Shown here: piece after piece, positions 8,566 to 10,673 of the stretch
Layout of the letters: each line of letters starts with the position of its first letter
How positions within the stretch are numbered: the first letter of the stretch is position 1
From: Lautropia sp.
GTDB taxonomy: Bacteria; Pseudomonadota; Gammaproteobacteria; Burkholderiales; Burkholderiaceae_E
DNA: 57,593 nt
Assembly (NCBI GenBank): GCA_030532425.1
Contig: JAUNLD010000012.1
Coordinates: 1-57,593, forward strand
Direction of reading: 5' to 3'
Notes under the pieces: generated by a model
Told to the model about the DNA's origin: nothing
The model's input: the letters and a program-made list of their open reading frames with translations, nothing else
Databases searched by the model: none
Made by a program: the position numbers and the translations under genes

Positions 8566-8979
8566 ATGACGACCGAAAAACCGGACATCAGCAAGCTTGG
8601 AAACGCTATCACCCGACTGGAAGAAGGTCTGAGCGCCTGGCAAGCCGACAGCGCCAACACACTGAGCCGGGATGGCGTGGTGCAACGCTTCGAGTTCACC
8701 TACGAACTGGCCCACAAGACACTCAAACGCTTTCTGGAATTTGCCTCCCCCTCGCCTGAGCAGTACGACCAGATGAATTTTCAGGACCTGATCCGCTCCG
8801 GCAACGAACAGGGCCTTCTGCTGGGCAACTGGCCCATCTGGCGGGGTTACCGTGACATGCGCAGCAAGACCAGCCACACCTACGACGAAGAGATGGCTCT
8901 GGAAGTGCTCTCGGGCATTCCGAAGTTTCTGGAAGAAGCGCGGTACCTGCACCAGAAACTGCAGGAGCGACTGGCATGA
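8566..8979 (+). CDS. hepT: HEPN-domain toxin of the HepT / HI0074 family
   Basis: 137 aa, all-helical, of the HI0074 'nucleotidyltransferase substrate-binding' family now known as HepT toxins. The RX4HXY motif is intact: R99, H104, Y106 (RSKTSHTY). In characterised HepT-MntA pairs the R and H form the RNase site and the tyrosine is AMPylated by the MNT antitoxin. GGAG lies about 8 bases before the ATG. The stop overlaps the start of the next gene by 4 bases, and that gene begins with the matching MNT domain. Function is inferred from family and pairing. Confidence 0.9.
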
Positions 8980-10673
8980 GCCGCCAAACGCCCAACATCG
9001 ACATCCGCCCAGACCAATGGGAGATCGTGCGCACCATCCTGCAAGAGCACATCCCCGGCCTGGAAGTCTGGGCCTTTGGCTCGCGCGCCAAGTGGACCGC
9101 CAAGGAATACTCCGACCTGGATCTGGCCATCATCACCGACACCCCTCTGCCATTGGAAACCAGCGCAGCCCTGAACGAGGCATTCTCGGAATCGGACCTG
9201 CCGTGGAAGGTGGATGTGGTCGACTGGGCTGCGACGGGGGAGGATTTCAGGCGGGTTATTGAGACACAGAAAACTGTGTTATCCCCTGCGGATACTCAGA
9301 AAAACTCAAGCACCAATGCCTTGACGACATCAACAGGCGACGTAACGCCTCCACCAGGATGGCAACGAACAACGCTTGAACACGCCTTTCACATCAACCC
9401 ATTCCGCCCCATCAAACGAGGAACCGTCACACCGTTCATTCCCATGGATGCGCTATCCGCCCATACCAGAAAGCCGGAGCGGATTGAGCGACGCGAGTTC
9501 ACTGGTTCAGGAACCAGGTTTCAGAACGGTGACACCCTGATCGCCAGGATTACACCATGCCTGGAGAACGGTAAAACCGTACACATCAGTGAACTGAATA
9601 AAAACTCGATCGGCCACGGCTCAACCGAGTACATCATTCTGGCGGGCAAGCAAGGCATCAGCGACAACTTGTATGGTTATTACATAGCGCGCTCGCAGGC
9701 CTTCAGAGACTACGCCATATCCCGAATGGAAGGAACCTCTGGCCGGCAACGAGTTCCGGCGTCGGCTGCAGCAGCCTACCCCTTCAACCTGCCACCTCTG
9801 CAGGAACAGCGCGCCATCGCCCACATCCTTGGCACTCTGGACGACAAGATCGAGCTGAACCGGCGGATGAACGAAACACTGGAGGCCATGGCCCGCGCCC
9901 TGTTCAAGGCGTGGTTCGTCGACTTCGAGCCCGTGCGTGCCAAGATGGAAGGACGCTGGAAACGTGGACAATCCCTGCCGGGGCTCCCGGCTCATCTCTA
10001 TGATGCTTTTCCCGACCAACTTGTTGAATATGGGGACATACAGATACCTGACAATTGGCGAGTCTCTGCCATCGGCGATGAAGTGACAGTTGTTGGTGGT
10101 TCAACCCCTAGCACGAAGGAGCCTGCCTATTGGAATGGATCACATCATTGGGCGACCCCCAAAGACCTATCCAGCTTACGCTTCCCTGTACTGCTAGATA
10201 CCGCCAGAAAGATCTCTAATTCAGGTTTAGAAAAGATCAGCTCTGGCCTTTTACCCAAGGGAACCATACTTCTATCATCCCGCGCCCCCATTGGTTATCT
10301 TGCCATAACCGAAATCCCCACCGCAATCAACCAGGGATTCATTGCCATACGATGCAAAGAATCATTATCAAACATATTTCTTCTTCAATGGTGCCACCAC
10401 AACATGGATCGGATCATTGGCAACGCCAACGGATCTACATTTCAAGAGATCAGCAAAAGCAACTTTCGACCCATACCAATTATTGTGCCGCCAAGAACTA
10501 TTATTAATATTTTCAACAATATTGCAAAGACCTGGCATCAACGAATGGCTGACAATGAACGCGAATCACTGTCTCTCGTAACGTTACGGAGCACACTGCT
10601 CCCCAAACTCATCTCCGGCGAACTCCGCCCCCCCGACCCCGAGCAGTTCCTTCAAGGGGCAGGCCTGTCATGA
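8976..10673 (+). CDS. hsdS: MNT nucleotidyltransferase antitoxin domain fused to type I specificity subunit HsdS
   Basis: 565 aa, one open frame. Residues 1-103 are a minimal nucleotidyltransferase of the MntA/HI0073 type: G35-S36, ten residues, then D47-L-D49 (GSX10DXD), and a third acidic residue D80 in KVDVVDW. A Ser/Thr/Asn-rich linker (about 104-125) leads into HsdS: target-recognition domain 1 (about 126-270), central conserved helices (about 272-325, [20 protein letters not shown]), domain 2 (about 361-515) and C-terminal helix (about 525-550, [11 protein letters not shown]). HsdS sets the DNA target of the type I complex; MntA-type enzymes AMPylate and silence HepT. Neither half looks degraded. 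Domain 2 is strikingly AT-rich. It overlaps hepT and the SIR2 gene by 4 bases each. Confidence 0.92.

Follow-up and report, generated by a model that had tools for sequence, protein, structure and literature searches.

Type I restriction-modification operon of the Lautropia sp. window

The window analyzed here is a 57,593-nucleotide stretch of Lautropia sp. DNA (assembly GCA_030532425.1, contig JAUNLD010000012.1, positions 1 to 57,593, forward strand). Profile searches distinguished within it a complete type I restriction-modification (R-M) operon on the + strand, with the gene order hsdM-HEPN-MNT::hsdS-SIR2-DUF6932-ORF-hsdR (ORF, open reading frame). The gene between HEPN and SIR2 encodes a single chain in which a minimal nucleotidyltransferase (MNT) domain is joined to the specificity subunit HsdS. 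The hsdM gene, an hsdS with two target recognition domains (TRDs) and hsdR are thus found together in one operon. Its core features are as follows:

6904..8529, + strand: hsdM, type I DNA methyltransferase subunit (PF02384, 366 bits, and HsdM_N; DPCCGSGG and NPPF strings)
8566..8979, + strand: HEPN (HI0074/HepT-like) gene, 137 amino acids (aa) (PF08780, TIGR01987)
8976..10673, + strand: MNT::HsdS fusion gene, 565 aa, without internal stop (Pfam and structure-sequence matches)
8976..9284, + strand: MNT domain, residues 1-103 (PF18765/PF01909; GSX10DXD at residues 35-49, D80)
9285..9345, + strand: linker of about 20-26 residues between MNT and W129, the first conserved HsdS residue (alignments of fused proteins)
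9346..10673, + strand: HsdS part with TRD1, central helices, TRD2 and distal region (PF01420, two stretches)
14216..17413, + strand: hsdR, type I restriction subunit (PF11867, PF18766, PF04313, TIGR00348; GSGKS, DEAH and IELK strings)
14692..14749, + strand: hsdR segment recurring as a 58-bp scar in a sister Lautropia (L047 9982-10039; BLASTN 52/58, E 1.7e-15)

The strings of HsdM and HsdR, like those of the SIR2 protein, are taken by us to be the usual motifs of each. Position 6904 marks the first ATG region of hsdM, the ORF itself being open from GTG 6769.

HEPN protein and the MNT::HsdS chain

The HEPN product matches PF08780 (116.7 bits; cutoff 31.8) and the HI0074 model TIGR01987 (75.1 bits; cutoff 55.8), and its nearest solved relative by sequence is HI0074 (1jog, E 7e-18). 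The RX4HXY motif reported for this gene in the original prediction, made from the sequence alone, is present as R99-SKTS-H104-T-Y106. Residues Q40, E43, R99, H104 and Y106 are invariant in all 20 aligned HEPN sequences, including that of the window. PF08780 is the only domain of the protein, which has no ABC-ATPase domain of the kind that distinguishes PrrC. The HEPN stop codon overlaps the MNT start (ATGA).

All the nucleotidyltransferase residues that had been predicted for the adjoining gene are also there: G35-S36, ten residues, D47-L-D49, and D80. A domain search of the 565-aa chain placed Polbeta (PF18765) at residues 21-103 and NTP_transf_2 (PF01909) at 18-97, both above cutoff. The chain continues in frame, with no stop, into a two-TRD HsdS (Methylase_S, PF01420, two stretches, 104.2 bits), as had been proposed. 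By sequence, the nearest solved relative of the MNT is HI0073 (1no5, E 3e-31) and that of the HsdS part is the S subunit 1yf2 (E 6e-46). A HEPN protein of PF08780/PF01934 with RX4HXY, next to a PF01909 domain (37.9 bits; cutoff 21) with GSX10DXD, is the combination of type VII class I toxin-antitoxin systems, and PF08780/PF01909 pairs are counted as class I in PMC7641770. The antitoxin of such systems is a small free-standing protein; here it corresponds to residues 1-103 of a 565-aa HsdS.

The codon-position G+C signal is weak across the junction, with no clear phase from about 9246 to 9515, so base composition is no proof of the frame in this part; the G+C content of 9263-9345 is 47%. Neither of the in-frame codons GTG101 and TTG116 is preceded by a Shine-Dalgarno match of at least 4 bases. 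The first in-frame ATG past them is M157, which lies within the HsdS homology, and the junction holds no start codon of any of the three types (ATG, GTG, TTG) with a 4-base Shine-Dalgarno match. A free HsdS of 442 aa, encoded in the sister genome G005 (L048), is 70% identical to the HsdS part of the window and starts four residues before this homology sets in, so the window chain extends upstream past the normal beginning of HsdS. Taken with the recurrence described below, the G005 start and the junction without a Shine-Dalgarno-led start make a convincing case that the join in the window is real.

MNT and HsdS share one frame in all 49 fused genes collected here, a set in which L041 was not counted next to its copy L103. 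A crude measure of the linker, from the end of the MNT profile to the next Trp, gave 0-48 residues (45 of the 49 genes, in which a Trp was found). An ATG with a 4-base Shine-Dalgarno match occurs at the junction in 5/49 genes. When GTG and TTG are also admitted the number rises to 34/49, but many of these codons encode valine where the MNT ends.

Distribution of the fusion

To survey how often MNT and HsdS occur on one chain, as the original prediction had suggested, one genome per species was scanned with an MNT profile. The scan pattern required W/F at MNT position 40, and the best 80 of 145 relatives were kept. Forty-two of these 80 loci are fused. A HEPN gene lies upstream of the fusion in 41 of the 42; in 40 it overlaps the fusion or is at most 53 bp away, and in L107 the distance is 912 bp, behind another ORF. 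GSX10DXD is kept in 42/42 fused loci and RX4HXY in 39 of the 41 adjoining HEPN proteins. With a minimum length of 300 aa for each, an upstream HsdM accompanies 37 of the 42 fusions, a downstream HsdR 25, and 24 have both; several fused loci devoid of an HsdM or HsdR neighbour lie near contig or locus ends. L139 represents a 43rd fusion, cut by a contig end. In a Pfam scan of fused chains, 38/38, including the window, matched PF01420, PF18765 and PF01909. The fused loci include some from records not labelled as metagenome-assembled genomes (MAGs), among them those of Pseudomonas sp. 8Z, Nitrosomonas mobilis, Simplicispira psychrophila DSM 11588, Sulfuricella sp. T08 and two Xanthomonas. The notion of MNT as always a separate protein was rejected, and so was an assembly artefact as a general account, since the join recurs in many assemblies. 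A frameshift or stop at the junction, or an MNT that is separate in every homologue, had been named as grounds for discarding the fusion; neither was encountered in the sequence data examined.

Residue 40 of the window MNT (9093-9095) falls at a place occupied by Trp/Phe in fused MNTs and by Gly in many free ones. Trp/Phe at this position may mark the clade, and its association with fusion is suggestive, a comparison to be read with the W/F requirement of the scan pattern itself.

Further draws of genomes were searched as well; the surveys were not summed, as some loci are the same DNA (L176=L098, L177=L106, L178=L086, L180=L117, L181=L112, L203=L108, L206=L087). In a phylum draw of 299 genomes, a full-length fusion was found in the genome of the window and in at least 8 of 298 others, a lower bound with up to 4 candidates scored per genome, and HEPN lies upstream in 7 of the 8 fusions besides that of the window. 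A class draw of 369 genomes yielded MNT matches (E 1e-10) in 38, the window's genome included. Besides the window, five of these matches lie in frames of at least 480 aa (G240, G176, G102, G106 and G243), and all five are MNT::HsdS behind a HEPN gene. Among a further 61 relatives that were drawn, Sulfuricella (G049) supplied a sixth such fusion.

The order hsdM - HEPN - fusion - hsdR is also present on a finished Zymomonas plasmid, pZMOB01. Among 30 plasmid records with an MNT relative, this is the sole match under an HsdS annotation, and the Acetobacter ones are separate genes. On two other Zymomonas plasmids HEPN and MNT are free genes, and the stretches examined there carry no hsd annotation.

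Several variants were noted. In L087 (3470-5533) HsdM begins with an MNT domain and is preceded by a HEPN of its own; another HEPN comes next, and then a 241-aa remnant of MNT::HsdS. MNT::HsdM was considered as a second recurrent form and rejected, with one occurrence (G444 = L087) among 299 genomes. L133 (1670-3121) encodes a YhcG/DUF1016 protein whose chain ends in an MNT domain; its gene precedes those of HEPN and MNT::HsdS. L044 (9699-11942) encodes a 747-aa MNT::HsdS with a DUF559 domain inserted between the HsdS halves. In L117 (3040-3860, = L180 694-1514) tandem HEPN genes precede MNT::HsdS, and the first matches PF08780 without RX4HXY. A second HEPN of L045 (7288-7704), with no MNT neighbour, lies by split hsdS genes and has Phe at the place of the acceptor Tyr (RX5HF, from the alignment). 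Another HEPN-MNT pair, with an MNT about 40% identical to that of the window, is encoded in the genome from which the window comes (G000), on contig C100, at about 495-1309.

Persistence of HEPN and MNT beside decayed hsd genes

A sister of the window pair is found in Lautropia sp. S17M_Sa_8 (L047/L061), where HEPN and an unfused MNT share 92.6% DNA identity with window 8551-9262 (BLASTN) and the DNA homology ends at 9262. The sister pair sits between mscL and nif3, and no hsd gene was found in the 16 kb around it. Directly 3′ of the sister MNT there is a 58-bp piece matching window hsdR 14692-14749, from which, in our reading, the last residues and stop codon of this MNT would be read in another frame. 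Because this hsdR scar follows the MNT, an R-M operon was probably once present at the sister locus, and a deletion probably left HEPN and MNT alone. The ratio of non-synonymous to synonymous substitution rates (dN/dS) between window and sister is 0.127 for HEPN, 0.111 for MNT residues 1-95 and 0.042 for mscL, values that average both lineages and do not date the deletion.

Fragments of hsd genes lie beside HEPN and MNT ORFs, both motifs kept, in L074, L077, L105 and L108. On plasmid pApBDGP5A of Acetobacter pomorum (L144), hsdM, HEPN and MNT are annotated, with transposases in the place of hsdS/hsdR. Altogether, six independent loci with decayed hsd genes keep HEPN and an unfused MNT (L047/L061, L074, L077, L105, L108, L144). 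In the decay scan the L093 query still held its MNT domain, and its HsdS x/383 matches over the MNT were ignored. The opposite situation was observed in L112, where MNT::HsdS is kept and inspection revealed about ten C-terminal HEPN-like residues upstream; in the 7.7 kb of this locus there was no HEPN match and no hsdM.

A HEPN-led search gave matches in 65/369 genomes, and 30 loci, 29 besides the window, were examined. An adjoining MNT ORF of at least 96 aa is present in 27 of the 29, one of which (L169) has an MNT without the second Asp of DXD and a short HEPN. In L161 both HEPN and MNT are degraded.

Fused and separate states

Within the best-80 set, no separate HsdS of at least 300 aa was found within 3 kb downstream of an unfused MNT (0/37 loci, less than 3 kb being covered for L063, L071, L072, L083, L097, L102, L137 and L140). 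Elsewhere among the MNT clades the two do coexist as separate genes, in L040 and L145, and in L171 and L174 with the HsdS running off the locus.

A tree of HEPN and MNT with 97 rows requires by parsimony 25 changes between the fused and separate states, at least 9 of them forced by starred branches, so joining or breaking appears to be easy and a single ancient fusion, which we considered, is unsupported. This was a quick tree with SH-aLRT support only, several long branches flagged and no root inferred; L139, really a fusion, was labelled separate on it, so each count of changes is possibly one too high. It leaves out L061 (a copy of L047), the HsdM-linked MNT of L087, and L041, L050, L053 and L060, as well as the rows without an upstream HEPN (L102, L112 and the second MNTs of L089 and L133). 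With no root inferred, gains cannot be told from losses on the tree, and the scars described above argue that some of the changes may be losses.

Comparison with known systems

In HepT/MntA of Shewanella oneidensis (SO_3166/SO_3165), as in the window, an RX4HXY HEPN adjoins a GSX10DXD MNT. However, MntA is a free protein of fewer than 150 aa in a two-gene module, whereas the window MNT opens the HsdS chain of a type I operon. The original prediction had described HepT/MntA as normally stand-alone, a description to be qualified: separate HEPN and MNT genes also sit between hsdM and hsdS on Acetobacter plasmids and in other genomes. The closest solved relatives by sequence, HI0074/HI0073 (1jog, 1no5) and the Legionella HEPN-MNT pair (8xeh, 8yuf, 8xeo), are, unlike the window chain, separate small proteins. 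The Legionella MNT is short and devoid of a C-terminal helix (PMC11586414), and in the fusion HsdS may take the place where this helix would be.

The same slot and order, hsdM-HEPN-MNT-hsdS-hsdR, are found on plasmids pAP1342-3 of Acetobacter pasteurianus and pAP1447-1 of A. ascendens, but there the MNT has its own stop and HsdS its own start. PrrC of EcoprrI, a HEPN-fold anticodon nuclease, likewise represents an RNase toxin gene embedded in an hsd operon, its product being controlled by the R-M enzyme. PrrC includes an ABC-ATPase and is neutralized by sequestration within the complex, whereas in the window the MNT on HsdS is expected to modify the toxin. According to the text of a comparative study of 2013, the HEPN domains associated with R-M systems are found fused to nucleases, helicases and ATPases, not methylases, while a table of the same study lists occasional fusions of PF08780/DUF86 to MNT, nuclease and nucleic acid methylase domains (PMC3710099). 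In the window, by comparison, it is the partner antitoxin that has been joined to a subunit, the one for specificity. The open-access literature searched, including text of PMC2701414, PMC3710099, PMC4621449 and PMC12839542, yielded no description of an MNT-HsdS fusion.

Accessory genes of the operon

Three genes separate MNT::hsdS from hsdR:

10670..12460, + strand: SIR2-domain protein, PADLOC candidate PDC-S65, accessory gene within the operon (PF13289; PDLC05061, E 3.8e-203)
12457..13137, + strand: DUF6932 protein (PDC-M63A; PF22014, PDLC04744)
13134..14072, + strand: ORF of no recognised family, 312 aa, which accompanies DUF6932 in L098 as well

A GS...DVDV string suggests that the DUF6932 protein is a second nucleotidyltransferase-like protein. 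DUF6932 and the ORF of no recognised family are also located directly 3′ of MNT::HsdS in a Magnetococcales genome (L098 5444-7025 = L176), and the pair at 12457-14072 of the window is possibly a second nucleotidyltransferase-based two-gene module. The PDC-S65 SIR2 candidate also occurs 3′ of hsdS in the sister G005 (L048 8989-10749), in an operon without HEPN-MNT, which shows a mixing of accessory genes in such operons. Between its hsdM and hsdS, G005 has a YhcG/DUF1016 nuclease gene (L048 6622-7674) in place of HEPN-MNT, while L111 and L135 have both.

Proposed function

We propose, with a probability of about 0.55, that the window encodes a type VII HEPN/MNT toxin-antitoxin pair in which the antitoxin has become part of HsdS, an arrangement that would make the R-M system addictive. 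The HEPN protein is presumed from its family to be an RNase toxin. In characterized pairs AMPylation of the RX4HXY Tyr by the MNT silences the RNase (PMC7641770, PMC11586414); by analogy, the MNT on HsdS, and hence on every assembled methyltransferase, would AMPylate Tyr106 of HEPN. If HsdS is made only as the MNT-bearing chain, loss of the operon or of hsdS would remove antitoxin and methyltransferase together, and HEPN that is still made or left unmodified would become toxic. Such addiction would add to the restriction-based addiction of the R-M system itself. The two domains on one chain, the intact motifs, the operon context, the recurrence, and the survival of HEPN and MNT beside decayed hsd genes are observed directly. 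That the fused MNT works as an antitoxin, that the complex carries it and that addiction follows are inferred. Of these steps the decay pattern appears to favour addiction, as it fits a toxin that must not lose its MNT, with one exception (L147).

That exception is among several observations that weigh against the proposal. L147 has an intact HEPN with an MNT broken after residue 55 (once in 29 loci); it is flanked by transposase (rve_3) ORFs, 77 bp before the HEPN start and some 40 bp past the MNT break, and this HEPN may be silent. Most of the decayed loci were found through an MNT search, so the presence of MNT in them is ascertained and only HEPN retention is free of this bias. Two HEPN proteins beside fusions have lost the motif (Y replaced by D in L082, H by N in L122), and some HEPNs in this position are thus probably inactive. 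RX4HXY alone is in any case no proof of an active site: in the Legionella HEPN the R and H of this motif are dispensable for RNase activity, whereas Q44/E47 mattered (PMC11586414), though the residues aligned with these, Q40/E43, are kept in the window. The MNT reaches 39.1 bits with the NCBI MntA equivalog model NF047752, below its cutoff of 60. Among the 42 fusions, L087 (241 aa, a remnant with no PF01420 match) and L093 (383 aa) are short, and in some fusions a separate HsdS might start inside the gene, so that both forms would be made. In L063 an unfused MNT runs directly into an hsdM cut by a contig end, a possible exception to any strict rule.

The original prediction had combined addiction with a guard role. 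Its addiction half gains indirect support from HEPN and MNT outliving the hsd genes and from L112; the guard half is so far unsupported. A guard would resemble PrrC: HEPN would be held, or kept modified, by the MNT-bearing methyltransferase, and a phage anti-restriction protein, by attacking or titrating the complex, would free it or leave it unmodified, so that the infected cell arrests. PrrC of the type IC EcoprrI operon is indeed released when T4 infects and inhibits the enzyme (PMC3874165, PMC12707154), a guard role was proposed for HEPN genes in R-M operons by the 2013 study (PMC3710099), and a recurrent physical join is what a sensor tether would need. Neutralization in this family is, however, mainly covalent AMPylation (PMC7641770), and blocking the HsdS complex alone would therefore not reactivate a modified HEPN; beside decayed hsd genes, moreover, the pair persists with nothing left to guard. 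The searches made found no relatives in viral contigs or phage records, which is neutral for this account, and we consider it unlikely. Equally doubtful is a related possibility, in which the MNT is best or only active when HsdS joins HsdM and HEPN reads the integrity of the methyltransferase, giving addiction plus arrest on loss, displacement or titration of the specificity subunit by anti-restriction proteins.

The join could instead merely fix the antitoxin level and its translational coupling to HEPN (ATGA), or reflect a tolerated loss of a stop codon, the complex gaining no function. Separate HEPN, MNT and HsdS genes in the same order in Acetobacter and others, the 25 parsimony changes with at least 9 forced, and the possible separate HsdS start in some fusions are in line with this, but tolerance would leave a mixture, whereas an unfused MNT followed by an intact separate HsdS was found in 0/37 loci against 42 fused ones; we regard such dose control as improbable. 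Little probability is likewise given to a domesticated regulator, in which HEPN binds the substrate for the MNT and the two together modify or tune the R-M enzyme without any toxin function. HEPN was first seen as a substrate-binding subunit of MNTs and MNT-fused HEPN domains typically do not have the RNase residues (PMC3710099), and single cases were found of an MNT on one chain with HsdM (L087) and with a YhcG-type protein (L133). Nevertheless, the HEPN motif is kept in nearly all proteins beside fusions (39/41), no ORF of the set combines HEPN with an MNT or Hsd domain, and HEPN and MNT outlive the R-M genes that would be regulated. A sequencing or assembly error joining two genes is extremely improbable: the codon-phase signal across the junction is weak and the window is known from an assembly alone, but 49 fused genes share the architecture, and the many assemblies they come from include a finished plasmid and records not labelled as MAGs.

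With its antitoxin on the specificity subunit, a single protein would unite two addiction devices. MNT::HsdS proteins bear on how strongly cells are bound to type I R-M systems and on how inhibition of these systems might be sensed. Annotators may miss them, as such a chain can be named plain “restriction endonuclease subunit S” (WP_014466389.1) and its antitoxin is hidden. The fusion would also offer a directly testable route from R-M integrity to toxin control, via a covalent AMP mark on HEPN. Should the integrity readout also prove true, a general rule might be that R-M toxins tend to go with the subunits that attack, a link reported for other families of HEPN, and antitoxins with the side that protects (HsdS and, once, HsdM).

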